DNA of 64,000 nucleotides from Zygnema cylindricum. Taxonomy: Eukaryota; Streptophyta; Zygnematophyceae; Zygnematales; Zygnemataceae. A program made the position numbers and the translations under genes. Under the pieces are notes generated by a model. It made no database searches. It worked only from the letters and a program-made list of their open reading frames with translations, and was not told where the DNA came from. Position 1 is the first letter of the stretch, and each line of letters begins with the position of its first letter. Location of the stretch: positions 62,001 to 126,000 of the forward strand of contig JBBHKE010002193.1 of NCBI GenBank assembly GCA_037447655.1, read 5' to 3'. Below, in pieces: positions 5,148-36,046 of this stretch.

Positions 5148-5231
5148 CTGAAAGGATCGATAACACAATCGGTATGCACAGAAAATTGACAAATTACACA
5201 ATGCGGAAGCGCATTTAACTCAAATCAAACA
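5148..5231 (-). repeat. Copia-2 3' LTR, outer piece
   Basis: 84 bp matching the inner edge of the copia-2 5' LTR at 28747-28830 (shared GCAGAAAATTGACAAATTAC and TGCGGAAGCG). It breaks at 5231, where the gypsy element begins; the LTR resumes at 22281. Confidence 0.8.
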
Positions 5232-6169
5232 TGTCATGCCGTAAGACATCAGCGGGTATTCTGATTAAATCGTGTACTAATTGAAGTTTCGGTGACGTGA
5301 CAGGTACATACCCGAGAGTACAACTAGAGATTCGTACGGGACAAAGGTAGAAATATACTCTCGTACGGAACTACGGGAACACAATGTGAAATCAGCGTGG
5401 AACTGGACCACGGTACGGCATCAGATGTCAAGAATTCAAACAGCTACAAACCTACGACAGGTGTCAGAAGTCATGAACCCTTAGAGGTTCATGCATCATT
5501 TTTGCTTAGCTTAGGGAGGGTTTTCATCCTCAAGGTGTAGGTGTAAGGCAGTCCGAGGCGGCCACGCAGCGGTCGTCTCTTGAAACTGGCAGCGTTTTTA
5601 CATAGAAACCTGCCTGCTGAGAGACATGTAGGAATTAGGGTAGCCGTACGGATTAGTGAAAACATAGGATAAATGCCATTCGGCGAGATGGTAACTTTTG
5701 CAAATTAAGTACGGGAATCCAACATTGGAAGGTTGTCGTTTTCTGACAAGCATTTTTCTCGGGATTTGTCGAACTCTACTGTTAGGGTTTCACCTAAATA
5801 TTTAGTGACAGGCTAGTTTTTGAGTGAGGGTTTTTCCTTCTTTAGACCCATAGGTTAATGCTAGTAATTGTCTGTGAGCTTCTCGTTTTCTTTGTATTAA
5901 GACCTAACCTAATCTACCGGCGGAAGCCAGCCTACAAGGTTTCCCTCCTGTTTGTGTTCTACTTGTCGTGGTGCACGAATTGTGGTGTGCGGATTTGGTG
6001 TTTTCTTACTGTCAGAGCTGACTTGGCGGTCTAGTTCCAATCCTGTCCGGCTTTGTGGGAATACCGGCTATCTCGGCTCCTTCAACCGGTTAGGGAAGGT
6101 TTCTGGTCCGCTGGTTGGACTCCTGTACGGAATATTAAAAGACTTCAGAGCCTAGTGGCTACTGTCGCA
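5232..6169 (+). repeat. Gypsy terminal repeat L, 5' copy
   Basis: 938 bp beginning TGTCATGCCGTAAGAC and ending ACTGTCGCA. It matches 21086-22040 closely by eye. Its upstream neighbour is copia-2 LTR, not repeat A, although A precedes L in the 3' copy. The small open frame at 5952-6155 lies inside the repeat and is not a gene. Confidence 0.85.
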
Positions 6170-6935
6170 AATATTCCCGTACTTAATTTATTTTTATTTC
6201 TAATTTTCTTTATTCCTGGTGTCAATTAGTTTCTTTATTTCTAGTTTATTTTAAATTGTTTCATTTCTGATTTTCGTCATTCCTTGTTTCAATTGTTTTC
6301 TTTCTATCTAGTTAATGTAATTTGTTTCCTTTTCGAGTCTGGTGGTTTTCTTTAGATTGATTTAATCTGTTTTTATTGTCAATCTTTAGGGTTTCGTTGC
6401 TTCGTGGGCTTTGAATTGGATATTTTCGATTTTATCTGTAAATCCGGTATAGTTTCCTCTTTCTGTCTACTTAGCGGATTAACTCACTCAGAAAACCTAA
6501 CAAACCTAAAAACTTATAAACAAAAAAAAAATATCAATATTGAAAACCAAGAAAAAAAAATATATATACATTAAATATATAAATTAGCTTGCACGAATTA
6601 TCACATAAAATTATAACTACTTTAATAGTTGGGTAGAGTGTGGCTTAAAGCTAATACGCATACCCTAACAGGCTACTAACCACTTTGGCATTGAGCTTTG
6701 GTGTGATTACGATAACTTGGAGCTGGAGCATCGTTGGGAGATTTTTACAGTATCCTACTAGATGCTATCGCTATAGGTGAGTAACCGATCCTTGTGGGTG
6801 CAGGCGAGATACAGGTTATCAAGCTTACTTGTATAGAGGGTTATAGATTTTACCAAAGGCTACGCTCTTTTTCTTCGCATATGACATCATTGTTGCATGG
6901 TCCTAGATCTGACCTTGACCGATCTTGATTAACGG
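6170..6935 (+). other. Gypsy leader, first part
   Basis: Begins directly after repeat L. No standard tRNA primer site is recognised. An AT-rich, poly-A interrupted stretch at 6490-6620 may be a small insertion. No coding frame is seen. Confidence 0.4.
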
Positions 6936-7100
6936 TTTCCTGCTTTCTTACATCTGGCCGTGTTGGCCATGAATAGTTTCTTGCTTTATTACTTCTGGCC
7001 GTGTTGGCCCTGAACAGTTTCCTGCTTTATTACATCTGGCCGTGTTGGCCTTGAATAGTTTTATGTTTTATTAAATCTGGCCACAAGTGGCCTTGCATAG
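6936..7100 (+). repeat. 41-bp tandem repeat, four copies, each with a GGCC hairpin
   Basis: Four copies of a 41-bp unit of the form TTTCCTGCTTTATTACATCT-GGCC...GGCC-TTGAATAG lie end to end. Each holds TGGCCGTGTTGGCC or, in the last copy, TGGCCACAAGTGGCC, so all four can pair GGCC/GGCC. A fifth, diverged GGCTGTGAACAGCC hairpin follows at ~7157. The position in the RNA leader fits a packaging or dimerisation signal; that role is inferred. Confidence 0.8.
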
Positions 7101-7516
7101 GTGACATGTTCCTTCTTGGAGTGGCTTGAAGTGACTTATTGTGGTATTGCTTAGATCTGGCTGTGAACAGCCTTGTTAGGTGTGTTCAGGATTAGACTAA
7201 CCCCGGTGAAACAGAATAGACCAAATCGTTTACCGGGGTGCTTGTTTGCGTGGGTGCTTGTTTGCGTTAATTTGAAGACTTCTTGTGTGATTTGATTATT
7301 AGATTTGGCGTTGGGCATTTGAACACTGACCCTGAGTAGGGTCTGGCCTCTATTTGCATCTGGATAGGATGACTATCTGGTTACATGCCAACGGACTTGA
7401 ACAATTTACCGTTCCCACCAGGTACCACTAGAAGCTCCAGTCTTTACTGTGGACCGGGCCTAGATTTGAGTCCCGCCTGCTCACCTCCTGTCCAGTTTCT
7501 AGGTCATACCGATCAT
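7101..7516 (+). other. Gypsy leader or start of gag up to the copia-1 insertion
   Basis: Contains an inverted pair CCCCGGTGAAAC (7201) / GTTTACCGGGG (7229) able to form a stem, and a direct repeat GGGTGCTTGTTTGCGT at ~7236-7268. The gag start is probably near the end of this piece, because the coding frame is already open immediately after copia-1 at 13853; the ATG could not be fixed. Confidence 0.4.
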
Positions 7517-8239
7517 TGCAATTCTGTGTCCTCCATTAGACTACAGAATACATGAAGCCTCTAGATAGTATTTAACTAACCCACTTTAAGCCACGACCAC
7601 TACTGCCCCAGAAGGCAAACTGACAATTTGACTGCACCCCTGTGCAGCCTGGACTCCCCTGAGTTCGTAGCAAAAATAATCACTGAAAACGGCCAACCAG
7701 CCGATGAGTTATGAGCCGGCAAAATTTGCCAATTTATACAAAGCTCTCTTAGAGAGAGAGGTGTCAAAATTTCCTAAGTCCTAAATCTCCCTCACAACCC
7801 TTATCTACTAAAATACGAACCAATCATATTACTGTAAAGTACAGAAAGGTACTACGGCCGAAGTCGTTTCAGTACGGCTGGTGTACGACAAAGCTACTCA
7901 GTGGACGTGTGTCATTTTTCCACTCGTTCGTATATTCTCCGGAATTCTCGCGACCGAATGTCATCCTTCCACGCGGCGCCACGTCATGCCATGTCCATAA
8001 AAACCAAAGTGACCATTTTGCGATCTCGGCGATGACGTGCGCCGACGGATTAAATCCGACATTAAATGTCGACCGTTTAAAACAAATGTCTGTTTCATTT
8101 GTTTTGTGCGAAATGACGCTCGCACTAAACCTTAACAAGTTCTATGTTCGTTTCGTCCAAATTACAGTTAAATCATTTCAGTATAATACAATAGTTTAAA
8201 TATAAATGAAACCCTATATCATCTAACGGACTTCTACGA

Positions 8240-8315
8240 CAGACTGGTTAGAGTTAACGGCTACGCCGCGCTCTATCGGTCGGGGGTTCGAGTCCTGCCG
8301 GACTCAACCTTTTGT
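8240..8315 (+). other. tRNA-like segment with Pol III B box inside the copia-1 LTR
   Basis: Contains GGTTCGAGTCC at 8285-8295, a perfect match to the RNA polymerase III B box (GGTTCGANTCC), preceded ~40 bp upstream by GACTGGTTAGAG, which resembles a tRNA D-arm. It is conserved in the other LTR at ~13580-13655. A good cloverleaf could not be drawn: the T-stem has mismatches. It is on the strand opposite to the element's genes. It may be a tRNA-derived fragment or chance. Confidence 0.35.
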
Positions 8316-8320
8316 TGAGA

Positions 8321-8338
8321 GTGACTTAAGTCACTCTT
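8321..8338. repeat. Perfect 18-bp palindrome in LTR
   Basis: GAGTGACTTAAGTCACTC is a perfect palindrome, also present in the second LTR near 13662. Its role is unknown; it lies 25 bp after the B-box-like motif. Confidence 0.7.
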
Positions 8339-8513
8339 TAGTCCTTCCTATGGAGCTGAGGCAGCCATGGCTCCATCGCTCTCTCTGTCGTTCAGTGACT
8401 ACAACAAGTATGGGAGAAAGAGAGAAGAGATGGAGGCAGGCTGCCATCTTTTTCTATATTTTTCCGCTAATGTAATTTAGACCTAGAAAATACAAAAACT
8501 ACTAATTTCAACA

Positions 8514-8526
8514 CTCCCCTTATTTT
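8514..8526 (-). promoter_or_regulatory. Copia-1 polypurine tract
   Basis: The minus strand reads AAATAAGGGGAG immediately before the LTR start TGTTGAAATT. This is where plus-strand DNA synthesis would be primed. It fixes the inner edge of the 3' LTR. Confidence 0.8.
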
Positions 8527-8606
8527 CTAGTCTATTTTTAATTTTTCTTTTAATCCACATTTTTCCCTACAGTATTTTAACTTTGGTGAGGGCACAGGTT
8601 TGATCA

Positions 8607-9438
8607 TCATGTCGCTACCATTTCCTCATCAGATCTATATACAAGATTCACTATTTTATTCTCAACTTTTTCTTTTACAAAACTTAATTTTATGTCCATA
8701 TGTTTAGCTTTAAAATGATGTTTTGGATTGGCTGCAATTGCTTTGGCCGCTTGATTATCACAAAACACTTTATGCACTCCTTCTTTCATATCCTAGTTCT
8801 TGCAGCAAGGACTTGACCCACATCAACTCTTTCACAGCAGAACAAGAGGCCATGTATTCAGCCTCCATAGTGGAATGAGCAACCACCTTTTGTTGCTTAC
8901 CGCTCCAACAGCATGCACCTTCCTCAACATACAACACATAACCAGAAGTGCATCGTCTCTTAGGTGCGTCCCCGTAACTGGCATCACTCCAAGTAGTGAT
9001 GTCAGTGTGCTCCCCTCCCAAATGCAACCATAACTCTCTAGTTCCTACCACATATCTCATGACTCTCTTGGGTGCCTCCCAATCCCTCTTTCTAGGATCA
9101 TTCAGACTCCTACTGAGTACCCCAACTGCTGTCGCTATGTCTTGCCTGGTACAATTCATAAAATAGATTAAACTTCCTACGACCTATCTATAAGGGATAG
9201 TCTTCATAAACTCTCTCTCTTCTGTACTCATTTGATTATCTAAGATCATCACTTATCCTTCTACACTCCCATCACTTACTTTTTTCAAGTCCATGGGAGT
9301 GGTACAACTGTTAGCATTTTCCATCTGGAATTTCTCAAGCATATTACCTATTGTTTCTTTCTAAGTAAGTTTGATAATCTTCTTCCCCCTATCTCTCTGC
9401 ATTTGAATCCCCAAAATATATTTTGCCTCCCCTAAATC
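8607..9438 (-). pseudogene. Copia-1 RNase H region, interrupted
   Basis: C-terminal part of the copia polyprotein, which degrades the RNA strand during reverse transcription. Recognisable family blocks: NCTRQDIATAVGVLSRSL, WSDASYGD, STMEAEYMA and WVKSLLQELG in the frame ending at 8770, then FCDNQAAKAIA and KAKHMDIKLSFVKEKV in the frame ending at 8607. The frame runs directly on from the RT frame but carries stops at 9439, 9361, 9253 and 9184; at each, related copia proteins favour glutamine or a similar residue. A frameshift near 8780 separates the last ~60 codons. The natural C-terminus is lost in a further shift near 8607. Confidence 0.85.
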
Positions 9439-11508
9439 CTAAATATCAAATTTGCTTCTAAGATCTGTTTTTAACTTATTGATCTTCTCCAAGGATTTAC
9501 TCAACACAAGCAGATCATCCACATAAATTGCAATAAAAATGACACCATTCTCATCTTCAAACATATAGATAGAATGGTCAGAGCTGATCCGGATGTATCC
9601 CAGATCGGTGAGAAACTCATCTAGTTTCTTATTCCACTGTCGGGGAGCCTGTTTCAGTCCATATAACGACTTTATGAGCCTGCAGACTTTGCTCTCTTCT
9701 CCTTCTTCCACAAACCCCTCGGGTTGCCTCATAAAAATTTCTTCCTCTAACTCACCATTAAGAAAAGCAATCTTAATGTCCATCTGGTGTATTTCCATGT
9801 CTTCAGCTGCTGCGAGGCTGAGGAGAATCCTTACTGATGGGAACTGAACAACTGGAGCAAAGGTCTCCTCATAGTCAATCCCCTCCTTTTGGGTGAACCC
9901 CTTCGCTACGAATCGAGCCTTATATCTTTCAATGGTATTATCTGGGTTCAATTTTAGTTGAAATACCCATTTACACCCAATAGGTTTTCTGTGTGGAGGA
10001 CAATCTGCTAGTTCCCAAGTATTTCCTTCCATGATAGAAGCCATCTCATCATTTATAGCTCTAATCCATCTTTCTTTCTCAGGACTATTCACTGCCTTCG
10101 AGTAAGACTGAGGCTCGTTAGGGTGAGATAGCTTAGTTACCTTATAAGCGGCTTGTTTTTCTTGTAATCCTTTGCTGCTCCTCCTTCCTCTCTCAAACTC
10201 TGAAGCAAGAATGGATGGAAGTCTTGGATTTCTTCTCACTGTCTCATCGGCTCCCCTGTCCATGGAAACCGGTTCTTGTCCCGCTTCTTCTATCTCCTCG
10301 AAGTCCATAGGAGTATGTGAGGTTTCCGGTGAGTCTCCTGTATCTTGGATCTCCCCTGAATCTGTAATCACGGTTTCACCCATGTCCCTTTCGGGAACGA
10401 CCGAGTTCTCCTCACTTTCGGACTCAAATGTGATCCTTATCTTCTTTGTATATTTGAAGGGGTCAAATGACTTCCCTTCATCCATGACAACTAAGTGTTT
10501 GACCAGAATGATATCTTTTTTCGCTAAGTCATAGACTGTATATCCCTTAACATCCTCATCATATCCCACAAAGTATCTTGGTTTTCCCTTAGCATCTAGT
10601 TTCCAATTTTTCCTATCCGTGTCAAGACTGTAAACTTGGCTACCAAATACTTTAAGGTGTGAGATATCTGGTTTCCTTCCAACCCATCTCTCATAAGGTG
10701 TCACTCCCTTTACAGTTGAGGTAAGGACTCTATTTTTAATGTAGTTGGCACAATTCATTGCTTCTGCCCAATTTTTTTTTCGTATTTTCTTGTCTGCCAA
10801 CATACTACGCACACTATCTCCTACTGTTCGATTCAACCTCTCAGCTACCCCATTTTGTTCCGGGTTATATGGTACAGTTTTCTGGTGCTGCACTCCCTCA
10901 TCTCTCAGATATTCCTCAAACTCGTTAGAAGTATATTCCCCCCCATTATCACTCCTTATCCTCTTAATGGGGGTTTCATGCAACTTCTCACTCCAAGCTT
11001 TATATTTTTTGAAGTAAGTTGATGTTTTAGACTTTGTTTTCAGAAAGTAGACTCTACAGTATCTAGACCAGTCATCAGTTATTGTCATCATAAACCTCTT
11101 TCCTCCAACCGAAGGTACTATTGCAGGCCCCCAAATATCTGTGTGGACCAAATCTAACACTTTCTCACCTCTATATGTGGCGACTTTGGGAAAGGGAAGT
11201 CTGTGAGCTTTACCTTGAGCACAACCACTATAATCATCCATCATTTTATTATCCCCAAACATAATGCCATCTACTACCCCAAGTTTTTTCATTTCTCTTA
11301 ACCTATCAAGATGCACATGCCCCAACCGCTTATGCCAAATCATCACCTTAGGAACACCACCATAGTAAGCATTCTTCTTTTCATTACTAAGGTTAAGCCT
11401 AAACATTCCTTGGCTACCCTTATGTGCTGTGAAGTATATTTCATCCCCATACTTAGCTGTAAAGACTCCCTTTCTAGTGAAGGTATCAAACTCTTTGTCA
11501 TCTAACAT
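9439..11508 (-). CDS. Copia-1 Pol: pre-integrase, integrase and RT (689 aa)
   Basis: Longest open frame in the window. In order: a GAG-pre-integrase zinc-binding region (HKRLGHVHLDRL ... CAQGKAHRLPF, residues ~58-105), the integrase core with the DD35E triad (HTDIWGP; RSDNGGEY; NGVAERLNRT, ~115-240), a charged linker, and RT beginning with WVFQLKLN and ending past the catalytic YVDD (IAIYVDDLLVL, ~665). Family motifs LKQAPRQWN and MDIKIAFLNGELEEE are intact. The upstream gag-protease frame is displaced by one shift near 11578, so the listed ATG is simply the first in this frame. The stop at 9439 falls in a conserved position, so the native protein would continue into RNase H. Confidence 0.93.
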   Translation of the reverse strand: MLDDKEFDTFTRKGVFTAKYGDEIYFTAHKGSQGMFRLNLSNEKKNAYYGGVPKVMIWHKRLGHVHLDRLREMKKLGVVDGIMFGDNKMMDDYSGCAQGKAHRLPFPKVATYRGEKVLDLVHTDIWGPAIVPSVGGKRFMMTITDDWSRYCRVYFLKTKSKTSTYFKKYKAWSEKLHETPIKRIRSDNGGEYTSNEFEEYLRDEGVQHQKTVPYNPEQNGVAERLNRTVGDSVRSMLADKKIRKKNWAEAMNCANYIKNRVLTSTVKGVTPYERWVGRKPDISHLKVFGSQVYSLDTDRKNWKLDAKGKPRYFVGYDEDVKGYTVYDLAKKDIILVKHLVVMDEGKSFDPFKYTKKIRITFESESEENSVVPERDMGETVITDSGEIQDTGDSPETSHTPMDFEEIEEAGQEPVSMDRGADETVRRNPRLPSILASEFERGRRSSKGLQEKQAAYKVTKLSHPNEPQSYSKAVNSPEKERWIRAINDEMASIMEGNTWELADCPPHRKPIGCKWVFQLKLNPDNTIERYKARFVAKGFTQKEGIDYEETFAPVVQFPSVRILLSLAAAEDMEIHQMDIKIAFLNGELEEEIFMRQPEGFVEEGEESKVCRLIKSLYGLKQAPRQWNKKLDEFLTDLGYIRISSDHSIYMFEDENGVIFIAIYVDDLLVLSKSLEKINKLKTDLRSKFDI

Positions 11509-11531
11509 AGACGCAGAGACAAGATTTTTAC

Positions 11532-12476
11532 TCAGCTGAGGAATGTAAAGTACATTTGAGAATGAAGTATAGAAGTCTTACCCTCCACTAAGACTTTCAG
11601 ATCTACTGATCCCACTAGATCTGTAGTAACCACTCTCCCATCCCCATACTCTATCTCTACAGTAGGAATCTTTCTTAGCTTAGTGAAGAGTTCTTTATCA
11701 CGACACATATGCATGGATGCACCTGAGTCGATGATCCATCCTTCCTGTGGAGCTTCCCGAATTGCTCCAAGGGCACACTTCTGCCTCCAAGGGATCTCCT
11801 TCTCCTTCAGACTCTCGTCAAAAAGAAGCTCCCCATCCTTCTCAGATGACTCATCCTCGGTTTCTCCTAACACTTTTGTAACCACAAGTGCCTTTTTCTT
11901 CCCTTCGGTAGAACCCCCTCCACGGTTTTCTTGGAGCCTCATCTCCGACAGCTTGACACAATCTGCAATAAAGTGTCGTGGCTTTTTGCAATAATGACAA
12001 AGACCCTTTGGGTGCCTCTGTCCCCCAAAATGATCTCTCTCCCCTCTATAAGGTTTCTTCGGGTCCTTCCCCCATCGGTCCCCTCCTGCTGCTAGAGCTT
12101 GAATGCTCTTTCCTCCTCTCCTAATCTCCATTGTGTTTTCCTGCACAAGTATCATCCTGACTACTGTGTTCCATTTCCATGAGCTATCAGGCATTCCCTG
12201 TACTCGGTACACTATGTTATCGAACTCATCTGGTAATTTCATGATAAGGGTGTTAACTTTTATTTTCATTGTACTTGTCCATCCGGCACTTTCCATCTCC
12301 ATATACAAACAAGAAAGATCATTACAGTAATCTAACATCTTTCCTCCTTTGTAAGTGTAACTCAATAGCTTTTGCTCAGCCAACTGGAGCTCTTGAATAG
12401 TTCCAGCCATATAAATCTCCACCAAACTCTCCCACAACTCCTCGGCCTTGTAAATGTGAAGATGAGGAGTGGCCAA
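11532..12476 (-). pseudogene. Copia-1 Gag (C-terminal half) and protease start
   Basis: A 314-codon frame. The N-terminal ~130 residues match the copia Gag fold (EELWESLVEIYM ... LPDEFDNIVYRVQ). A CCHC zinc knuckle CHYCKKPRHFIADC follows at ~165, then the aspartic protease active site IIDSGASMHM at ~247. Gag packages RNA, and the protease cuts the polyprotein. The frame is shifted against the Gag N-terminus (12376-12873) around 12400-12476 and against Pol near 11578, where the LYIPQLS block appears in the other frame. Two single-base lesions therefore separate three otherwise readable frames. Confidence 0.85.
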
Positions 12477-12873
12477 AACCTTGAGTGAGGTGCCTCAGAA
12501 TGAAGTTCTTGGCAGCCATGTTTACATCCTCCCACATTTGAGTATCGTTCTCCACGGTCTTCACGGTCGCCGCTCCCGATACTGTGGCAATAGGAGTGAG
12601 GGGTGTCTCCTTCCCTTTCTCCTTTTCGGACACACAGCTGTCCCCATCATCTGCCTCCTCCGCTGAGGTAGCCGTTGTTGCAGAAAACCTTACTCCCCCA
12701 AATCCTGGTGGAGTTCCCGAAGGTGAACGTTTCACTCGTCCACTGACGATACCCCAAAATCGTTTTTCACACAAAGCTCTCATCATCATGGCTTCCCAAT
12801 AGATGAACCCAGATCCATTAAAGGTGGGCACCCTAGAGGGTGGGCCCATAACCTGCAATTTTGTGTCCTCCAT
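12376..12873 (-). pseudogene. Copia-1 Gag N-terminus, start inside LTR
   Basis: A 165-codon frame starting at ATG 12873. It carries the copia Gag opening (PTFNGSGFIYWEAMMMRAL) and shifts out of frame at its end (FGHSSSSHLQ onward is out of frame). The first seven codons lie within the LTR repeat: the matching ATG and GGACACA are also present in the 3' LTR at 7532. In most copia elements a primer site and leader separate LTR and gag, so either the LTR has been extended or the primer site was lost. VMGPPSRVP may be the original N-terminus if translation begins at the next ATG. Confidence 0.8.
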
Positions 12874-13852
12874 TGGACTACAGAATACATGAAGCCTCTA
12901 GATGGTATTTAACTAACGCACTTTAAGCCACGACCACTGCTACCCAAGAAGGCAAACTGACAATTTGACTGCACCGTTCTGCAGCCTTGACTCCCCTAAG
13001 TCTGTAGCAAAAAGAATCAATGAAAACGGCCAACCAGCCGATGAGTTATGAGCCGGCAAAATTTGCCAATTTATACAAAGTTCTCTTAGAGAGAGAGGTG
13101 TCAAAATTTCCTAAGTCCTAAATCTCCCTCACAACCCTTATCTACTAAAGTACAAACCAATCATATTACTGTAAAGTACAAAAAGGTACTACGGCTGATG
13201 TCCTTTCTGTACGGCCGGTGTACGACAAGGCTACTGAGTGGACGCGTGTCATTTTTCCACTCGTTCGTATATTATTCGAAATTCTTGTGACCGAATGTCA
13301 TCCTTTCACGCGACGCCACGTCATGCCACATCCATAAAATCCAAAGTGACCATTCCGCGATCCCGCCGATGACGTGCGCCGTCGAATTAAATCCGACATT
13401 AAATGTGGACCGTTTAAAACAAATGTTCGTTTCATTTGTTTTGTGCGAAATGACGCTCGCACTAAACCTTATCAAGTTTTATGTTCCTTTCGTCCAAATT
13501 ACAGTTAAATTATTTCAGTATAATACAATAGTTTAAATATGAATGAAACCCTATATCATCTAACGGACTTCTACGACAGACAGGTTAGAGCTTACGGCTA
13601 CGCCGCGCTCTACCGGTCGGAGGTTCGAGTCCTGTCGGACTCAACCTTTTGTTGAGAGTGACTTAAGTCACTCTTTAGTCCTTCCTATGGAGCTGAGGCA
13701 GCCATGGCTCCATCGCTCTCTCTCTCGTTCAGTGACTACAACAAGTATGGGGGAAAGAGAGAAGAGATGGAGGCAGGCTGCCATCTTTTTCTATATATGT
13801 TTCCGCTAATGTAATTTAGACCTAGAAAATACAAAAACCACTAATTTCAATA
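12854..13852 (-). repeat. Copia-1 5' LTR
   Basis: 999 bp, partner of 7517-8513. It ends in AATA, where the other copy has AACA at the terminal dinucleotide, one substitution at the conserved CA end. It is followed by GTCAT, the probable target duplication. Confidence 0.9.
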
Positions 13853-15449
13853 GTCATAACGCTCAGTCTCAGCTTACGGGTTCACCCGACTTTAGATATG
13901 GTATTACCACCACGTATAGATCCACATCATCTGTCTCCTTATCCTCTTCCTATAGCTGGGGGGAAGATTCGGACATAGACTCCCTTGATATCCGCGATCT
14001 AAATCTACCACCTTCGCTTTTTCCTTTGAGCGGAAATATACACACTAACTCCGATTCCTATTTTGTGGATATGGCCTCGTCCATAGACGCCGGAGGAGGT
14101 AGAAATCAGTTTTGTTTTTTGGGTCTCAAGGACACTATGTCCTTGTCACATTTTCGAATGCTTTTTGATATCGAGATGCGCGATCTCGCATTCCGGTATC
14201 AAGACCGTTATGATTTACGGGTTGCTTTTTCGTTACTTGGGTGATACCTTAGAGGATCTGCCCTATCTCTATATACACTGACGTATGCGGCAATCTGTGC
14301 TATGACAGAAATGGCACCCGCATATTTTGGATCTTTAGCCATAAAGGCAGTCCTGAAATTCTTTTCCAAGCTGCGGTACCTGCAGCATATGACTTTGAAG
14401 GTAACGAAATTTCACCAGAAATACTTGAGGTCCCTCATCAGTTCGCCGTTGCGGCGCAGGCATTAATTCCAGCTCGCCCTGCAATGCTAGTTCCTCTAAG
14501 GGATCCGGTATTGTTTGTCTTCAGTTTATTACAGGAAAGTACTAAATGCAGAATCCCGATCAAGTTAAAGAACTAATGAATTTTGAACGTCGCCCAGGCG
14601 AAACCGCTCCGGCATTGCGAGCACGTATGGAAACATTACGTGAAGCACTGCCAAATCTCATGTCAGACGTAGAGGTAGTTTAAAAATTTGTGGGTCAATT
14701 TCCTACCCAATCTGGACGGTTCATTCAAAGCCATTTGACTGAGGCATATGGCCTCAAATTTACTCTCGAGCAGGATGCAGAATACGCCGTACGGTATGAA
14801 ATGCAGACCAACTGGTGGGACGCTCATGAGCGACCTAATTCTTTTCCTAATGCAAACCCGAATCCTAATCCTAATCCACGCAACCCATGGTCTAATCCGA
14901 GACCTCCAAGAGCTCTGGCCATGGGAACATTACCAACAAACCCTAGTGTTCGTATATGTTTTCGATGTGGTCACACTGGTCACGACGCATGCAGCTGTCC
15001 GGATAAGACTGCCACATGTACTCATTGTAATCAAACGGGTCATTATGTACATCGATGTCACATTAAAAATCCCGATTTCAGTTATCAAAATCAAATCAAA
15101 AACGGCGGTATACTTGCTTGCTCGGCAAAGTTGGTCACTCCACCCAAAGGGGTAGAGAAAGACAACCCTTCGAAAATTAGCAGGAGGGACCGAGAGAAAG
15201 CCGAGACGCAGGCTACCGTAGCGGCTATGATGAAGGAGCAGTTTGCCGCGCTTATGGCGCAGGCCAAACCGCAATTAACCGGAATGGCCCGAACTGTGGT
15301 CTTTATGCCCTCTTTTACTGGGCGATCTCTTCGGGAGTCCACAGTTCAACAACGGGCACCTCAGTTTAAACAGACTCCTGATCATAATCGCGAGTCAAAA
15401 TCCATTAACACGCGTATCCCACTATCATTTGCCAAAGATCCCCTATTCT
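13853..15449 (+). pseudogene. Gypsy Gag with two CCHC zinc knuckles, broken
   Basis: Coding sequence resumes right after copia-1 in frame 1 (a serine-rich stretch, then QFCFLGLKDTMSLSHFRML). It passes through frame 0 (14301-14560, including HQFAVAAQALIPARPAM) and frame 2 from ~14560. A stop TGA at 14242 and TAA at 14681 interrupt it. The last part (to 15449) is clean: LTEAYGLKFTLEQDAEYAV, a (NP)n repeat, then two knuckles CFRCGHTGHDACSC and CTHCNQTGHYVHRC at 14958-15054, followed by a basic, Gln-rich tail. Gag binds the element RNA through the knuckles. The N-terminal residues lie left of copia-1 and are not recognised. Confidence 0.8.
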
Positions 15450-15450
15450 A

Positions 15451-15891
15451 GAAACGGCTTCAAGCATCACCGCTGAAGCATTAACAATGCTGGAGAAGAG
15501 CATACAAGACACATATAAGGTGAAAGAACGCTTGTGAATCCTGTCCACCATGCTCCCAGAGTTAGATAGCAATGACAAAATGGTAGATCTAACTCCTTCA
15601 ACAGTTGGGTTACAGGCAATACAAAACCATCGTAATGCTCTCTCCCTTCAAGCTATTACTCTTCAAGAGCGGTCTAGCCTCACTCCTCACATCAGTTTTC
15701 TAGATAACAAAGTGGGTGTTTTCACGGTTAATGGGGTTGCTCCGACACTTCCTCTCATGGACACGGGCGCAAAGCCAATTATTCTTGGTTCTGATTTTAC
15801 CATCAAAATAGGTCTTACATCGATAATCTTACAACCCACTACCACATGCCTATCGGACTGCAGTACCACAGCCCGCCCCTCGATACGATAG
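15451..15891 (+). pseudogene. Gypsy aspartic protease region, broken
   Basis: Frame 1, displaced from gag by a shift near 15449. A TGA at 15535 breaks it; a clean 113-codon frame follows with LPLMDTGAKPIILGSDF, where DTGA is the retroviral-type aspartic protease active site and the ILG segment is the usual following strand. The protease releases Gag and Pol parts. After ~15880 the reading passes to frame 2 (15860-16010, with NAWVGSRRAIFELG) and then to frame 0, so at least two more shifts separate it from the methyltransferase. Confidence 0.7.
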
Positions 15892-16011
15892 AACGAATCC
15901 ATTTTCGCCAGAGTCAGTCAGAACTGATTTAGCAGAATTTATGCTCACGCTGTCACCAAGTGTAATGACTATGAATGCTTGGGTCGGGTCAAGACGCGCT
16001 ATTTTTGAGTT

Positions 16012-17543
16012 GGGGTGATATGCATGATCGTGACATTTTCAGACAGACGAACAACTTTCCGGAACGTAAAATTTGCTTACCCTTTATCTCGGCCCAGCAA
16101 CCCATGTCTACTACAGCCCATTTGGCGCTGATCTTGCCAGCCTATGCCGATTTTGGTATAGGTGCAGACATCCTTGAGTCTCTAACAGCGGATGAAATCT
16201 CACCAGATCCCCAAGGTTTACCAAATTTATTTAGTACACCGAGATTTATTATAAACTCTTTGGAGTTTGACCAGCTTTATAAATTTACTATACTAATTCC
16301 TTTATCTAGTATTCCAAATCCACCCTCCATTACGATAGATCCTTCCGGGTTCTAGCCTATTAAATGGACAGCGGTCAATTTAAAACCACACCAAAACAGA
16401 CTCGTTATCTTAGACCTTTTTGCCGGAATAGGGACTTCAATTTTCTCTTGCCTTCGGAACGGTCTTCTGATGAAGCATTACTATTCCGTATATATTGATC
16501 CTTTAGCCAGACAGGCTCAGTTGCACCACTGTCAAGTCTTGTACGAGCAGTATCCTTATCTCTTACCCCAGTCTGCGTTCCATGATATGCATTCGGCATT
16601 TCCACAGGATATCTGGCTAATAGGAAATCATCATTTAATGGAATTGGAACCAATTGATCTCCTCTTTGCCGGCGGGGAATGTCAAGGTATGTCTAGGGCC
16701 GGGAAAGGTTTAGGGCTTGCAGATCCGCGTAGTAAACTGTTCTTCGAGGTGGTTCGTTTGATCCACTTCTTCCAAAAATTGGATCGTCCTTTCGAATACA
16801 TCCTAGGAAATATTGCAACTTATAATGACCCCCGACCTATGGTCCTCGCAGATTATAAACGCATTCAATCATTAATTGGACCACCACTGATCATTCATGC
16901 CGCACGCCACGGTTCGTCGGCTCACAAGGTTCGTTCCTAGTGGTCTAACCTGGTGGACATGGGTCGGCTCCGAGAAGCTAACTTAGTTGTCCGTCCACCT
17001 AACTTTTCCATTCTGGATGCACTTCTTCCATTTCATAAGGTCCTGACCCGTATATAAACAGACTATCCTCTTGCATTTCGTCTTAACATCCTGGACCAAC
17101 CACTACGTGCACTGCCTACACTAGTTGCATATCCACACTCTCACGCATACTCGCATAATGGGCCGGGCATGCTTTAGAATACTCATACAGGCAGCTTAGA
17201 AGAACCTACTGCCGCAGAACGAGAACATCTTTTACATTTCATCTCAGGCAGTACTGCTGCTCCGGGACTCACCGAGAGGCAGCGTTGCACCTTACTTGGT
17301 AGTGTCATGGATCCCCAATCACTATCATTTGTCTTAGGCATGGGGTTCGCAGCCGGTCGATACGCATAGAACCATCCGTCTCAATCAGCTGGGGGGGGGC
17401 ATACACCATTTACACCATTTAAACATACAGCTTCCAAATCCTCACCTTCTCTTCGGGGTACAACATTTCAGCTCGCTCTTTTTCCTTTCCCTGCTAAGTT
17501 TGACATAGATCACACTATTTATGACTTTTTAAAGCCTAGTCAC
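16012..17543 (+). pseudogene. C5-DNA methyltransferase domain embedded in gypsy Pol
   Basis: One frame with five stops (16353, 16938, 17055, 17175, 17367) and no frameshift. Motif I is DLFAGIGTS (16413). A motif II-like block is YYSVYIDPLARQ. Motif IV is DLLFAGGECQGMSRAG (catalytic Cys codon 16680). An RSKLFFEVVRLI block as in DNMT3/DRM-like enzymes follows; the motif VI position reads YILGNIATYND (16806); a motif VIII-like HKVRS/WSNLV follows; motifs IX/X are LTERQR ... LLGSVMDPQSLSFVLGM (17265-17340). These enzymes methylate carbon 5 of cytosine using S-adenosylmethionine. Here the Pro of the PC motif is Glu and the Glu of ENV is Gly, both normally essential, so the copy would be inactive even without stops. 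It sits between protease and RT. Retrotransposons that captured cytosine methyltransferases are known in dinoflagellates and charophyte algae. Confidence 0.85.
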
Positions 17544-19703
17544 ATGAGTTGGTCTCTCCCAGCATACACGGCCGCTAGATCTCATGTTCTGGTACGGGCA
17601 TCACCACACTGGACAGCTGCATTTCCATCTAGAAGTAGGCATCACGCAGTACATTGTTTGTATCAACTTCCTGTCGAGTATGAGTTGGGTCACTCCTTGA
17701 TAGCAGATGAACAGCTAGCCTTTGCACAAGCCATGGAAGCCAATACCATTAACACGCCTGAAAAACCGACATGGAAATTCGGAACTGGACTAACAGAAAC
17801 TGAACACGAACTTTTAGATAAAGTCATAAACCGAAACGTAGACGCATTTGCTTTCTCCATGAAAGACTTAGGTCGACTCACTACTCACAAAATGTCTATT
17901 GACCTGGAAGATGACAGACCTATATTTAAGCCCAAGCATCGTCTATCAAAAACTGAATGGGAATCCGTAGACAAACGATGCGCAGAGTTAGAAGAGGCAG
18001 GCCTAATTTATAGGTCTGACTCCACCTTTGCGTCTCCCACTGTCATGCCTCTTAAGAAAGACGCGGAGGGGAATTTTACAGAACGTCGCATGTGTGGGGA
18101 CTATCGAGAAATGAATTCACGTACAATCCAGGACAGACATCCAATGTCGTTGGCCGATGACATTTTTGATCATGTTGGAGGTGCTAAATATTTTAGCATC
18201 CTAGATCTACAACAGGGATTTAATCAAATCGAAATAGAAGAAAAAGATCGACACAAAACTGCATTTTGGGGTAGTGACAAACGTTGGGAATGGGCGGTTA
18301 TGCCCTTTGGACTGAAAAATGCACTGGCAGTATTTCAAAAAGTCATGGACTCAGTCTTCAGGGGATGTAAGTTTGCCCGTTGCTATATCGACGATCTAAT
18401 CATCGCTTTGACCTCAATAGAGGAACATGCAATACATATAGAGTGGGTGTTGAAGGAATTAAAAAAGGTAGGACTTAATTTTCATTCTGCCAAATGTACC
18501 TTTAGGGCCAAAGGGGTCCCATACCTTGGGCACTTTATCTCGTCCAAGGGAATTACCCCGCTAGAAGTCAAAGTGGAAGAAATTAGTAAACTACTGGCTC
18601 CAACTGATTTGACTAGCCTGCGTGCATTTCTAGGGTTAGCCAATTATTATCAGCGGTTTGTCGCCAGTTTCAGCACAGTTGCATCCCCATTAAATGAACT
18701 ATTGAAGAAATCAGTTCCGTTCACGTGGGGACCCTCTCTGATCAAGGCATTTCAAGGATTAAAGGACGCACTGTCCACCGCTCCCATCCTCCGTCCCCCA
18801 AATCATAAATTACCGTTTTGCCTACAGACGGACTTTGGTAAGCCCGGTATTGCATCCATCCTAACTCAGCGTGAACTCACCGGTGAGGAATATGTGGTGG
18901 CTTATGCCAGTCGGAGCAACAATCAGGCCGAGTCAAATTACACTAGTTATGAGGGGGAGTGCCTTGCCACAGTTGGGGGTATTGTGCATTTCCGACACCA
19001 TCTCTACGGCAAGCCTTTTACCTTTCTTACTGACCATCAACCATTGCATTGGCTCATGACCAATGACAAGCTATCCGGCAAATTAGCCCGTTGGGCTCTT
19101 ATTTTACAGGAATATGACATGGAAATAATCCATCGACTCAGGCTCCTCAGTTTGAATGTCGACGGCCTCTCAATGAACCCTTTGCCCCACTCCAATGATA
19201 ACGGTGTACGACAAGATTTTGATGACGAATCAGTTTCCTCCTCAGCCGGAGCACATGTGATTTATAGTTATGCAGCACCGACAAACCACAAAACCGAACA
19301 CGATCCATGGCGGGACAATGCTTTGATTCTTTTTCTCTCTACACAGTCTTTTCGGGCGGGCACCCTACCAATGGAAGACGAGCGTGTCCGTAAGAAAGCC
19401 TTAAGTTACTTATGGATGGAGGGCTCTTTTATTCGTCTTCTCTTAGATGGAAGTCATCGGCATGTCCCAGGACCGACGAAACGACTTTCACTTATCAACC
19501 AAATTCATACTGACCTTCGACACTATGGCACAAAACAGACCTTGAGTTCGGTACAGGCACATTATTGGTGGTCCGCCATGCAGGCTGATGTGACGGCTGT
19601 GTTGCAAGAATGCAACACATGTGACCGGCTACAAACTTCATTTTCTAACCGACAAACCTCCCTTCAGCCCTTGCCTATTCGAGGTCTCTTTTACAGGTGG
19701 TAG
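17544..19703 (+). CDS. Gypsy Pol: RT, RNase H, integrase zinc region (719 codons)
   Basis: Same frame as the methyltransferase and continuous for 719 codons. RT spans ~residues 125-300: PIFKPKHRLS, CGDYREMNSRT, ILDLQQGFNQI, VMPFGLKNA and the catalytic CYIDDLIIAL with YIDD at 18384-18395. RNase H follows (~420-540: FCLQTDFGKPGIASIL, YEGECLA, TDHQPLHWL). An integrase HHCC zinc finger comes next (HTDLRHYGTKQTL ... CNTCDRLQ, ~655-700). RT copies the RNA, RNase H removes it and integrase inserts the DNA. The first ~80 residues after 17544 belong to the junction following the methyltransferase. The stop TAG at 19701 lies at the first integrase Asp block and is a lesion, not the natural end. Confidence 0.9.
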   Translation: MSWSLPAYTAARSHVLVRASPHWTAAFPSRSRHHAVHCLYQLPVEYELGHSLIADEQLAFAQAMEANTINTPEKPTWKFGTGLTETEHELLDKVINRNVDAFAFSMKDLGRLTTHKMSIDLEDDRPIFKPKHRLSKTEWESVDKRCAELEEAGLIYRSDSTFASPTVMPLKKDAEGNFTERRMCGDYREMNSRTIQDRHPMSLADDIFDHVGGAKYFSILDLQQGFNQIEIEEKDRHKTAFWGSDKRWEWAVMPFGLKNALAVFQKVMDSVFRGCKFARCYIDDLIIALTSIEEHAIHIEWVLKELKKVGLNFHSAKCTFRAKGVPYLGHFISSKGITPLEVKVEEISKLLAPTDLTSLRAFLGLANYYQRFVASFSTVASPLNELLKKSVPFTWGPSLIKAFQGLKDALSTAPILRPPNHKLPFCLQTDFGKPGIASILTQRELTGEEYVVAYASRSNNQAESNYTSYEGECLATVGGIVHFRHHLYGKPFTFLTDHQPLHWLMTNDKLSGKLARWALILQEYDMEIIHRLRLLSLNVDGLSMNPLPHSNDNGVRQDFDDESVSSSAGAHVIYSYAAPTNHKTEHDPWRDNALILFLSTQSFRAGTLPMEDERVRKKALSYLWMEGSFIRLLLDGSHRHVPGPTKRLSLINQIHTDLRHYGTKQTLSSVQAHYWWSAMQADVTAVLQECNTCDRLQTSFSNRQTSLQPLPIRGLFYRW

Positions 19704-20837
19704 TGTGATCTTCGAAGTCCCGTTCCCATTTCTCGAAAGGGCAAACAATACATCATGGTAATGATCGAGAATTTGAATAAATAGGTGGAAGTCGTGGCAC
19801 CCTCGCAGAAGACTGCCAAACTTACCACGGCAGCTTTTACGGAGCACGTGCTCCTCCGGTATGGAGCCCCCACTGAAGTACTTACGCACCAAGGAACCGA
19901 GTTCCGTGGCAAATTTCAAGAGATGCTGGACAAGGCGTTAATCGATCACCGGCGTACGAGCCGAGATCATGAATTTCAAGAGATGCAGGATGAGGCGTTA
20001 ATCGATCACCGGCGGACGAGCCGAGATCATCCTCAAGCACATGGTTTGGCAGAGAGAGCTGTACAAACCTTTAAGGGTGCTTTGTGTAAACATTGCTTAG
20101 AAAAATAGATTATAGTGTGGGATGAATCATTGGGATATATTGTCATGGGTTATCGCATGTCTCTACAGGCCAGTCTGGCAAATTTCAGCCCCTATTATGT
20201 GTTGTTTGGTTGAAAACCACTAGTAGGTAGGAATTTACAGAAAGCCGCGAGCTTAGCTCTACCTTTTATGTCTAATTCTCTGTTTTTGGAAGAACTAACT
20301 AATCGAGCGTTGCTTTTAGCTAGAGAAATGCCCATGGCTTTTGAAAATTTGTCGATTGCCCAACAACAGGACTCCTTACGGTTTGCAACAACTCGCAAAG
20401 CCAGTTACCGTCCACAACAAAAACCTTTGCGGGTGGGGGATTACGTTTATTTGCGATGGCAAACTTTTGATAGACTCAACACGGATGTTTCAGCTCATAT
20501 CTTGAGGATAACAAAAATCGACCCGAATGGATTATTGAGCCTACAAGGGGCCAACACGCGAACTTTGCGGGAGCATTCAAAAAATTGTGCCCCATGCTAT
20601 CTACCCGATCTCTCCCACAGCATGGTCCCGTGGCGGATGGCGATTAGCGAGGCCACTGAGTGCCAGTTATGCCGGCGATCTGATGGAGAAGCAACAATGC
20701 TCCTTTGTGACTATTGCAATCTGGGATTCCATATGGAGTGTTTGGTTCCACCTCTGCACACTATCCCGGCTGGACAGTGGTTTTGCCACGGGTGTCACGA
20801 CCTACCGGCTGTCCTTACCAGCTCCCCCGCAGGCTAA
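19704..20837 (+). pseudogene. Gypsy integrase core, C-terminal region and PHD finger
   Basis: It continues in the same frame after TAG 19701, with further stops at 19782, 20106 and 20211, and ends at TAA 20835. Core blocks: YIMVMIENLNK, then THQGTEFRGKF, where the second catalytic Asp of the DDE triad is replaced by His, then AHGLAERAVQTF with the Glu. A 60-bp tandem duplication lies between them. A GYRMSLQASLANFSPYYVLFG block and LRVGDYVYLRWQTFD mark the integrase C-terminal region. A PHD finger follows (20661-20804, C4HC3: CQLC, CDYC, H..C, CHGC). PHD fingers read histone tails, so a role in choosing integration sites is plausible but inferred. The DNA enzyme is inactive in this copy. Confidence 0.85.
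19912..20031 (+). repeat. 60-bp in-frame tandem duplication in integrase core
   Basis: Two successive 60-bp units (EFQEMLDKALIDHRRTSRDH-like, 20 residues each) differ at only a few bases. The duplication keeps the frame but lengthens the spacing between the second Asp position and the catalytic Glu, which would disturb the active site. Confidence 0.85.
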
Positions 20838-20854
20838 GGAGCTGGGGGGGGGGG
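20836..20854 (+). promoter_or_regulatory. Gypsy polypurine tract
   Basis: AAGGAGCT followed by a run of 11 G ends exactly where repeat A starts (20855). It directly follows the Pol stop. Its position argues that the true LTR begins with repeat A rather than with L. Confidence 0.7.
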
Positions 20855-21085
20855 AATTCCATCCTTACTTACCTGATCTTGTTTTTTCTTTTCTTTTCCT
20901 TACTAAGTCCATGTGTTCGGAATAATTTGTTTCTTTCCAGGGAGATTCATTTATTATTTCTTGCAGTATATATGCTTTGTCCTCTGATTGTGGTCACAAT
21001 TATTATACATATGTAATGGTCATTCATTTTCTGGTGTTTTTCGACGACCCACGCGGGATGTGATGCATGCCATTCACGGTGGTAC
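20855..21085 (+). repeat. Gypsy terminal repeat A, first copy
   Basis: Starts AATTCCATCCTTACTTACC and runs to GGTGGTAC before repeat L. It is nearly identical to 22041-22270. It is absent before the L copy at 5232. Confidence 0.85.
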
Positions 21086-22040
21086 TGTCATGCACGACAG
21101 CTATCATATCGTAAGACGTCAGCGGGTATTGTGATTATATCGTGTACTAATTGAAGTTTCGGTGACGTGACAGGTACATACCCGAGAGTACAACTAGAGA
21201 TTCGTACGGGACAAAGGTCGAAATATACTCTCGTATGGAACTACGAGAACACAATGTGAAATCAGCTTGGAACTGGACCACGGTACGGCATCAGATGTCA
21301 GGAATTCAAACAGCTACAAACCTCCTGACAGGTGTCAGAAGTCATGAACCCTTAGAGGTTCATGCATCATTTTTGCTTAGCTTACGGAGGGTTTTCATCC
21401 TCGAGGTGTAGGTGTAAGGCAGTCTGAGGCAGCCACGCAGCAGTCGTCTCTTGAAACTGGCAGCGTTTTTACATAGAAACCTGCCTGCTGAGAAACATGT
21501 AGGAATTAGGGTAGCCGTACAGATTAGTGAAAACATAGGATAAATGCCAATCGGCGAGATGGTAACTTTTGCAAATTAAGTACGGGAAATCAACATTGGA
21601 AGGTTGTCGTTCACTGACAAGCATTTTTCTCGGGATTTGTCGAACTCTACTGTTAGGGTTTCACCTAAATATTTAGTGACAGGCTAGTTTTTGAGTAAAG
21701 GTTTTTCCTTCTTTAGACCCATAGTTTCATGCTAGTAATTGTCTGTGAGCTTCTCGTTTTCTTTGTATTAAGACCTAACCTAATCTACCGGCGCAAGCCA
21801 ACCTGCAAGGTTTCCCTCCAGACTGTGTTCTACTTGTCGTGGTGCACGAATTGTGGTGTGCGGATTTGGTGTTTTCTTACTGTCAAAGCTGACTTGGCGG
21901 TCTAGTTCCAATCCTGTCCGGCTTTGTGGGAATACCGGCTATCTCGGCTCCTTCAACCGGTTAGGGAAGGTTTCTGGTCCGCTGGTTGGACTCCTGTAGG
22001 GAATATTAAAAGACTTCAGAGCATATAGGGTATTGTCGCA
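21086..22040 (+). repeat. Gypsy terminal repeat L, 3' copy
   Basis: Partner of 5232-6169. It begins TGTCATGCACGACAG with ~17 extra bases before GTAAGACGTCAGCGGG and ends TATTGTCGCA. The short minus-strand frame inside (21939-22151) is not a gene. Confidence 0.85.
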
Positions 22041-22280
22041 AATTCCATCCTTATTACCTGATCTTATTTTGTCTTTTTTTTTCCTTGCTAAGTCCATGTG
22101 TTTTGAATAATTTGTTTCTTTCCTGGCTGATTCATTTATTATTTCTTGCATTACATATGCTTTGTCCTCCGATTGTGGTCACAAATACTGTACATATGTA
22201 ATGGTCATTCATTTTCTGGTGTTTTTCGACGACCCACGCGGGATGTGATGGATGCCATTCACGGTGGTACTGTCATGCAC
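22041..22280 (+). repeat. Gypsy terminal repeat A, second copy
   Basis: Begins at the base after L ends (AATTCCATCC) and ends with TGTCATGCAC, the first ten bases of L, exactly where copia-2 LTR sequence resumes. With the L at 5232 this gives the order L-internal-A-L-A. Confidence 0.85.
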
Positions 22281-23888
22281 AATAAACATCAACTTGCTCA
22301 CATTAGAAACATTGATTTCTCATGAACATTAGATAGAGACATTACATAATTAAGAAGAGGAAACTCATATTAATTCTCATACATTACTTCTACATCAATT
22401 TCTCCTTAGTTGTTCCTTAATGGTAACCAATCCCTCACTAGCTGGCATTTTAACTTAGTCGCCAGATTACATCTAGAAATCTAACGACATGTCCCCATGT
22501 ACTTGTAACTTAACGAACTTACTTTGTATTTTAGCGCGGATCCGGCGGACCCGTTTTTCAAGTGTCCCTATGTGTAAGAACGTAATCGTAATTTTTGTTT
22601 GTGACGATTGTATACGTCGACAATACCTGTGACGATTGTCAACGTCTACAATTTGTGTTGTCAGACGTCATTTTTTGGAATTGCTTGTGACGTCGCATAT
22701 CTTACCGTGACATTGTAGACGTATCGTATTCCAGCCTGTGTAGTTTCATGGTTGAAGACGAGGCGCTTTGCCTTTGCGTCTCCTATCCGCTCCACATGAA
22801 ATGGCATCGGAATTTCAAGACCCTTACAAAAAAAACATCCGTACTGGACAAAAACGGACAAAACAAAACAAATTGTGTATTTTTCTTTGACGTATTGAAT
22901 GCAAACAGACAAAACATAGTGACTTGCGTACTTTCGATTGTCTTTGGAAATCGTGTGAAAATTTTCGAAAATTACGGCACGTGCGAATATGTGTTCCTAT
23001 TTGTTTATATCAAATCCCTAGTTTTAAAACACATCGCGCATGTGTTTTAAAAATAAGGTTGAAGATGACGTTTTTTGTTGTCGAAGTCAGTCGAAAAACA
23101 CAAGACGACAAATTTTCGTACATCCTAAGTTCGAGGATGACGCAAATTGTACTCTACAAATTTGCGATTCCTTCGTACGGTTAGAACTTCGGCAGTACGG
23201 CGATAATTTTTACAAGAAAACGACAGAAAAAAACCCTTACTTATGCACATGGGGACATACCATAATTCTACAAGCGTCGCATGTACTTGGATGCAAAATA
23301 GAGTACGACGCAAATTGAAACTACTCGAAACCAAACGTATAGAAGTACAGACTAGGTTTCTCACATTTTGGCCCGCGGTGTGGTTTGTGTGGACATAAAG
23401 ACACAGGTTCAAAACACGAGTTACTCCCACACTTCGCAAAGTACTGCCCAGGTACCTTGCGATTTTAGGGTCATAGGGTTATTGATTGTGTTTTTTTTTA
23501 ATAAAAAAAACACGAATGAGAAAAAAACCCTAAATATTTTTATACACATGACGTCCGTGCGGCGCGGCACGCCGTAAAACGAAACGAGTGTGGACGTCGA
23601 GAGTAAAAGTTCCACACTTTGTTCGTAGCGCGAAAATCGCAAGGTTCAGTACAGTAGTTAAAGTAAAACGTAACCTACACGAAACGAAACTGCTAGAAGT
23701 ACTATGTACGAACCGAAAGTATTAGAAGTCCCGTACACAAACTAAATAGACCAAACCGTTCACATTTAATCAAACGCAACCAAAAGTACAAATGAAACGA
23801 AACAAAATGCGCGACGTGACAGGCGACAAAGAGACCCACACTAAAAACGATCCAACATTGACAAAAATCCCACATTATAATCCTAGCA
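22281..23888 (-). repeat. Copia-2 3' LTR, inner piece, with insertions
   Basis: 22281-22485 matches 28845-29000 of the 5' LTR (shared CTCACTAGCTGGCATTTTAA and CGCCAGATTACATCTAGAAA). A family C element sits at 22486-23258. LTR sequence resumes with AAGCGTCGCATGTACTTGG, is interrupted again at roughly 23360-23650 by unassigned sequence absent from the other LTR, and ends TCCTAGCA at 23888. Confidence 0.75.
22486..23258 (+). mobile_element. Family C DNA element (C2), complete
   Basis: Ends GACATGTCCCCATGTACTTG and GCACATGGGGACATAC are inverted repeats. The internal GCGCGGATCCGGCGGACCC block matches 56693-56715, the GAAAAAAACCCTTACTT block near the right end matches 62581-62597, and GAAGATGACG blocks recur in C5 and C6. 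Overlapping open frames (22661-23439) are not conserved between copies. It is non-autonomous. Confidence 0.75.
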
Positions 23889-26708: not shown

Positions 26709-27428
26709 TTAATCTACATGAATAAGTTCCAAAGGTTGACTCGCTCGAAATTGTACATTTTTGACAGGATGGGGTTTTCTCATTTGCTTCCCTTTGCTAC
26801 AACCATTACATCCATTCAGCTTTTTTCCAGTCGCCAATTCCAAACCTCTCACCGAAGAATTCTTTATCATCCTTTTAATGTTTCCCTCCGAAGTGTGGCA
26901 TAACCGATGATGCCAAATGCTAAGGTCGCCTTTCTCTGTCTCCACAGAAAGTATAGAAGGTTCTTCTTTAACCAGTCGTTTCCAAATCAGCTTACTAACC
27001 AAATTATCCGACACAAATCCTTCCCCAGTTTGGATTCCTTCCTTACTTTTAATCATGATTATAAAATCCTCCAAAGAAATGACTCTACCTACGGCCTTTT
27101 CAATTTGAGGAACACTAACCAAATTCACCACTCCATTAGGAATAAACAAAGCATCATTCAACTTAGATTTATGCACTCTAACATTTCCAAATTTATCTCT
27201 CATAGGTAAATCAATTCGGACCGTTCCAACCATGTCCACCGGAATCACATGTTCACTCGCAACAGTGACATTCCTTGGAACCGTAAGCTTCCTTGTATCC
27301 GAAAATAAACTTAAATCTGTACACACATGATGTGTTCCGTCGGTATCAATAATCCAATATTTTACACAATGATTATTAGAAGCCGAATTCAAAATTGCTC
27401 CGGTTTTCTCGTCCAATAAAATAGTCAA
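26709..27428 (-). pseudogene. Copia-2 protease and pre-integrase region
   Basis: A 239-codon frame. The protease active-site block near the start reads WIIDTDGTHHVCTDLSLF where relatives have IDSGATHHMC, so the catalytic DSG is altered. NVRVHKSKLNDALFIPNGVVNLVSVPQIEK and the pre-integrase zinc region (LSIWHHRLCHTSEGNIKRMI ... CNGCSKGKQMRK) follow. The end LELIHVD is the start of the integrase core. It connects upstream to Gag through a frameshift near 27490. Confidence 0.88.
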
Positions 27429-27456
27429 ATTGTAATATTGCTCCTCAATGTCTTTT

Positions 27457-28449: not shown

Positions 28450-28732
28450 CTCACTATCAAAATCAAAATCCTCTTCTATCTTTTTCTTTTTCTTTTTCTT
28501 ATATTTTCCATCATCATCTGAATTATCTGAGCTGCTACTAGAACTAGATCAAGAGCTGCCCTCCGATTCCTCTTTCACTGAAACATTTTCCTTTTTCACC
28601 TTTTTATCCTTTTTCCTTCATAAATTTCTACCACTCCATATAAGTGTGTCTATCTAACCGAATGTCATAACTTTCCTTGTCTTTAGGTTCATCCATGCCT
28701 AACTCACTAGATCCTCAATATGGAGCTAACCT

Positions 28733-36008: not shown

Positions 36009-36032
36009 ACCGGCAAGTGTTGCCAGTAACCC

Positions 36033-36044: not shown

Positions 36045-36046
36045 AT

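Follow-up and report, generated by a model that had tools for sequence, protein, structure and literature searches.

A cytosine DNA methyltransferase (MTase) lying inside the polyprotein of a gypsy retrotransposon raises the question of what kind of enzyme has been acquired, and of how an element so built enters the genome of its host. We addressed this question at a locus of Zygnema cylindricum within a window (the whole stretch of DNA analysed) of 64,000 nucleotides. A preliminary description of this DNA had placed the MTase at 16012-17543. These bounds are too narrow, as the element spans 5232-22284 and is interrupted by a Copia element at ~7517-13850 (Table 1). The preliminary description had also overlooked the split terminal repeats of the element and the variable joint between A2 and B2.

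Table 1. Layout of the MTase-bearing element and of the Copia element nested in it, in window coordinates
Feature	Positions	Strand	Observation
Left 4-bp target duplication AACA	5228..5231	+	
A1, left split repeat, begins TGTCATGCC	5232..6172	+	95.6% to A2 over 940 bp
5' region of element up to Copia insertion	6173..7516	+	Matched by other copies
Nested Copia, outside the family	7517..13850	-	LTR pair 93.7% identical; other copies continue across site
Gag-like frame, CCHC-like motifs, broken	14684..15451	+	Weak zf-CCHC in window and L010
Protease-like piece with DTGA	15538..15891	+	Asp_protease_2 below cut-off
MTase domain of DNMT3 type with 3 stops and a Glu-to-Gly change in motif VI	16356..17366	+	PF00145, DNMT3A
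RT, RNase H, H2C2 of integrase	17370..19703	+	Profile matches
Integrase core remnant, tandem duplication ~19912-20030	19785..20108	+	Weak, E 0.026, below cut-off
Integrase end and PHD finger	20214..20837	+	PF00628, E 3.8e-11
Polypurine tract ahead of B1	20836..20854	+	G-run in 11 printed copies
B1	20855..21099	+	Self-comparison
A2	21102..22040	+	B1-A2 joint GACA-GC-TGTC in most other printed copies
B2	22041..22284	+	Right end reads AATA in the window and GACA in most other printed copies
Right 4-bp target duplication AACA	22285..22288	+	

The MTase inside the gypsy pol is real, and its identity as a DNMT3-type cytosine methyltransferase is confirmed. A profile search gave a PF00145 match over the curated cut-off (E 1.9e-10) on a 194-aa piece at 16356-16940, inside the interval 16012-17370 where the preliminary description expected an MTase; the domain limits of Table 1 were set by comparison with another copy, L010. 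The same piece matched DNMT3A in a phmmer search of the PDB (E 1.1e-5), and with a profile built from 11 related MTase domains DNMT3A was matched at E 3.2e-20, a weak match to the motif IX/X part coming in addition. DRM2 ranked after DNMT3A against this profile and covered profile positions ~2-137 at most. In DRM methyltransferases, the motif order is rearranged. Here, motifs I, IV, VI, VIII and IX/X follow the linear, DNMT3-type order. Of the earlier label 'DNMT3/DRM-like', the first half is thus retained, and a DRM-type identity is rejected on the linear order and the confined DRM2 match. A structure model of the MTase of a relative (P0047), predicted from a 13-sequence alignment, had a mean pLDDT of 66.9, with residues 170-470 mostly >80, and all 50 matches listed for the model were DNMT3-family entries. 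As previously described, the motif I, IV and IX/X-like blocks share one frame, though a frame with three stops in the domain. Profile matches likewise locate the MTase between the protease and the RT, with the DTGA piece of the protease in a different frame in the window copy, and a PHD finger follows the integrase.

The window copy is dead, as attested by its stops, the nested Copia and a motif VI that reads LGN (Glu to Gly), where other copies retain the Glu. Because of the three stops and this substitution, its MTase cannot be functional; searched alone, the broken piece gave two weak protein matches. In the window copy and 20 fetched copies taken together, the motif IV Cys and the motif VI Glu are each kept in 20 of 21. 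The LTRs of the nested Copia diverge by 6.3%, more than A1 and A2 of the element that it interrupts (4.4%), and B1 and B2 diverge by 7.1%; despite its larger LTR divergence than that of A1/A2, the Copia must be younger because it is nested. Further Copia pieces lie on the minus strand at 26709-28548 and 32981-36053. For CpG, observed/expected ratios were 0.61 for the Copia, 0.78-0.82 for the window element and 1.04-1.07 outside; being below the outside but above the Copia, the element bears no sign of self-methylation in the window.

In the host genome (352.8 Mb), MTase DNA occurs at 40 scored places including the window, with 85-100% identity, a lower bound since 40 of 219 candidates were scored. 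The domain is therefore not a one-off insertion; the idea that other copies might lack it failed, and a multi-copy family is established. Fetched copies comprised the 20 most similar of the 39 other places. An intact copy with the same domain order, which the preliminary description had proposed to look for, exists: L010 has an uninterrupted 2395-aa frame encoding CCHC, protease, MTase, RT, RNase H, H2C2, rve integrase and PHD, in this order, with CCHC and protease both slightly below the Pfam cut-offs. Its integrase matched rve with 47.9 bits, and no tyrosine recombinase or phage-integrase match was obtained in the scanned pieces of the frame. The order RT, RNase H, integrase and the gypsy-type domains assign the element to Ty3/gypsy by its domains and not by its ends, because the terminal repeats are split (A1...B1-A2-B2) instead of forming whole LTRs at both ends. 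One further place, G000:C1798:55074-61030, has a right flank and an A2-B2 joint identical to those of the window copy and a B1-A2 joint 99% identical, with only 85% in the MTase; it is a chimeric duplicate or a misassembly.

PF00145 was scored at 123 of 782 candidate places of the genome, long open frames included. Thirteen further places were fetched. Ten of them, with PCQGYS in motif IV, make up a second group; of the rest, L101 shares 76% identity with L010, and L095 gave no match. In L102, a member of the second group, a 1520-aa frame encodes MTase, RT, RNase H, integrase and PHD, in this order; the host genome contains a second family with the same pol order as the window element. No A/B repeats were found in one copy of this second family, and a possible ATTA duplication there, among 12 candidate sites, carries no evidential weight. 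The exon L099 (G000:C2414:27182-28153) is, by motif, what we take to be a likely host DRM-type gene. It is 25.5% identical to the transposon MTases at best, and a recent capture of the host DRM as the source of the MTase is rejected on this basis. Among other genes of the host, the light-harvesting genes gave 88 matches, with clusters of alternating orientation on G000:C519 and C2590; for one LHCII frame, we take the top chains to be those of moss, then spruce and angiosperms, with Chlamydomonas lower (multi-unit chain 9vfj_2 excluded), which points to a probable streptophyte host. The assembly gave no match to the RuBisCO large subunit.

Pairwise NG86 comparisons of L010 with each copy that retained 60% or more of the codons gave median Ka/Ks values of 0.19 for the MTase (19 copies), 0.11 for the RT and 0.07 for the RNase H (15 copies each), 0.155 for the integrase (12 copies) and 0.27 for the protease region (16 copies), which are rough because every pair includes L010 and stops were dropped. 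These values suggest that the MTase is under constraint. Identity between B1 and B2 is 99.6% in L010 and 92.9% in the window copy, so that insertions both young and old occur in the family.

Self-comparison of the window revealed the repeat order A1-coding-B1-A2-B2 and not LTR-coding-LTR. The element has TG...CA ends, TGTCATGCC on the left and GCACGACA on the right, the last four bases of the window right end reading AATA in place of GACA. The 4-bp flanks agree in five of the seven copies tested (the window, L010, L019, L009 and L015) and have no match in L014 and L020; in the controls, none of 42 cross-pairs agreed, nor did any of the seven copies at 3, 5 or 6 bases. A full readable set of ends is absent from most fetched copies. 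L014 and L015 terminate at B1, and L018 and L025 are tandem-like. All 11 printed copies have a G-run ahead of B1, which in L015 lies ~30 bases upstream. At the right end of L056 (L079, on C1571), the terminal 34 bases of B2 are repeated in tandem ahead of the flank. L037, L038 and L039 have young A-B ends whose sequence next to the joint is that of L010; their duplications could not be read, as no matching left end lay at the distance expected from L010, and they are perhaps shorter, non-autonomous relatives.

The two internal joints behave differently among copies, B1-A2 being constant and palindromic and A2-B2 variable. With 40 of 265 candidates scored, the B-A joint gave 38 spanning matches, 35 of them without net indel. 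For the A-B joint (40 scored of 281 candidates), all 40 matches span the joint, with 11 net lengths relative to the window joint. We inspected 45 sequences with an A-B joint; 40 were readable, and the five unreadable by pattern (L045, L050, L009, L023 and L013) show deletions or a long G-run. The 40 readings contain 25 kinds of string, with one locus read twice (L066 lies within L022) and omitted from the pair comparison. On the B side, 0-6 G's of the polypurine tract are retained, and the A side ends at GCAAAT or a few bases past it. Fourteen pairs show 98% or more identity next to the joint; of these, six have the same string and eight differ. Judging from the right flanks, L053/L054 and L035/window each represent a single insertion sighted twice, which leaves four same and eight different of 12. 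Right flanks also identify L010, L037 and L038 as three separate insertions with one A-B string. Overall, the A-B joints look like joined cDNA ends.

From these sequence features, we consider it rather probable that this Ty3/gypsy family joins the ends of its linear cDNA into a circle, which the integrase would reopen inside the LTR before insertion. The true LTR would then be B-A, with a U3 beginning at the polypurine tract before B and a U5 ending near GCAAATA, at the boundary between A and the 5' region. The product of reverse transcription would be an ordinary linear B-A-coding-B-A DNA, whose ends would be closed by end joining, leaving a variable A-B scar. The palindrome GACAGCTGTC in the 5' LTR would be the site where the integrase opens the circle (or a concatemer), and insertion of the reopened DNA with a 4-bp duplication would produce A1-coding-B1-A2-B2. 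Copies ending at B1 may have arisen either through one-LTR circles or through subsequent recombination of B1 with B2. An opening inside the LTR fits because the B-A joint is constant and palindromic and the A-B joint variable, the ends are TG/CA, the duplications are of 4 bp and the integrase is of the DDE type; the split repeats, the duplications in five of seven copies and the rve match speak for the same route. The missing 4-bp match in L014 and L020, the AATA in place of GACA at the window right end, the scarcity of fetched copies with a full readable set of ends and the second-family copy devoid of A/B repeats speak against it, as does the A-B string common to L010, L037 and L038, which inheritance would give.

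This last observation is accounted for by a templated circle as in DIRS elements, in which the RNA would span A1-B2, the ends would be completed on the internal B1-A2, the A2-B2 joint would be inherited and a DDE integrase would perform the insertion. The repeat order is indeed that of DIRS, as the available part of a 2018 paper states for KnitGypsy (PMC5890265). However, the A-B joint is far more variable than B-A, including in the 8 of 14 pairs alike beside the joint, and the additional bases in it correspond to polypurine-tract sequence and to the beginning of the 5' region, as expected of free cDNA ends; we regard the templated circle as unlikely. The A-coding-B-A-B order would also suit insertion by a tyrosine recombinase, as in DIRS, with the integrase decayed or borrowed. 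DIRS elements are not known to make a target duplication. This rival was already weakened by the 4-bp duplications in five of seven copies and by the rve match, with no phage-integrase match in the scanned L010 pieces; in addition, no frame in 6173-7516 reaches 150 aa. We give it hardly any credence, the least of all the alternatives. Scarcely less improbable is an ordinary LTR element reshuffled later to A-coding-B-A-B by tandem-array recombination, as the tandem-like L018 and L025 might recall, since recombination would not repeat fixed TG/CA ends at A1 and B2 with flanking duplications; these duplication-flanked ends had already weakened this rival.

Under the end-joined circle, which we prefer, the most likely substrate of the MTase would be CpG in newly made cDNA or in the circle, and insertion would be guided to a histone state by the PHD finger, two less certain proposals that draw on homology. 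Motif IV of L010 and its relatives speaks against the first, reading ECQ in 35 of 41 sequences, PC in five and DC in one, where PCQ is the usual form. This uncommon motif, with an MTase activity that is here only predicted, could indicate a passenger of no use to the element; but the catalytic Cys of motif IV is kept in all 41 sequences, the relatives being 33-48% identical to L010, and the Ka/Ks of the MTase is near those of the other enzyme domains. A passenger is therefore very doubtful, if a little less so than tandem reshuffling.

A region search yielded 40 related polyproteins with 33-48% identity to the L010 MTase, two of them named Haematococcus lacustris; none was confirmed in viral contigs. 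In 33 of them both domains could be located (the MTase/RT order of the other seven was not placed, and these were left out of the count): the MTase precedes the RT in three (P0003, P0006 and P0013) and follows RT and RNase H in 30. The before-RT group forms one side of a branch in trees built by a quick method without outgroup for the MTase (6 rows, SH-aLRT 99), RT + RNase H (4 rows, 100) and the integrase (4 rows, 96); P0004 and P0005, whose sequences stop after the MTase, are counted as before-RT because their MTase comes after the protease part. The second group of the host falls on the same side (support 99). As the three trees split alike, the MTase and the remaining pol travelled together. 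Pol order divides the MTase-gypsy lineage into elements with the MTase before RT and after RNase H. The new subfamily suggested earlier, by MTase position and PHD finger, is therefore upheld for the order, which marks one side of the trees, and not for the PHD finger, rejected as a mark since it was located in 30 of the 40 relatives, with either order. The result is a wider lineage with two pol orders, beyond the capture described for one charophyte alga.

For this LTR lineage with a DDE integrase, the odds lie just in favour of a broader reading, in which end-joined circles would be the normal route, the A-B joints fossil 2-LTR-circle joints and the palindromic integrase site one that has moved into the LTR, with the element's own DNMT possibly acting on circles. 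Retrovirologists have long disputed whether integrase can use circular DNA; if every copy in the genome bears its own end-joined scar, this dispute becomes readable from sequence and testable in one organism. In open-licence papers, we found no account of a circle route for gypsy elements and none of further MTase-bearing gypsy elements.

The capture of an MTase by a gypsy element is not new, since KnitGypsy-Dnmt3 of Klebsormidium nitens was published in 2018 (de Mendoza et al., PMC5890265). Compared by description and not by sequence, and from the accessible part of that paper, it resembles our family in its gypsy domains, in a non-rearranged Dnmt3 in the pol frame, in DIRS-like repeat order (A-coding-B-A-B here) and in purifying selection on the MTase. 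The K. nitens MTase produced no methylation in yeast, which speaks against our reading, though its authors call the result inconclusive. The same source describes SymbioDIRS-Dnmt3, which also has a Dnmt3 in pol and the A-coding-B-A-B order, but a tyrosine recombinase where our family has a DDE integrase; no tyrosine recombinase was found in the scanned L010 pieces, and 4-bp duplications flank five of seven copies. Polyproteins with the MTase after RNase H (e.g. P0014 of Haematococcus lacustris) share a related MTase, RT, integrase and often PHD, and differ in the position of the MTase and in lying on the opposite side of the branch in three trees. Finally, PFV and HIV-1 integrases are reported, in the portions available of three papers (PMC1180852, PMC1905944, PMC4372172), to cleave palindromic 2-LTR joints. 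The integrase proposed here would likewise cut a palindrome on a circle; in PFV and HIV-1, this palindrome is the LTR-LTR joint, whereas in our family it would lie inside the LTR and the LTR-LTR joint would stay as a scar.
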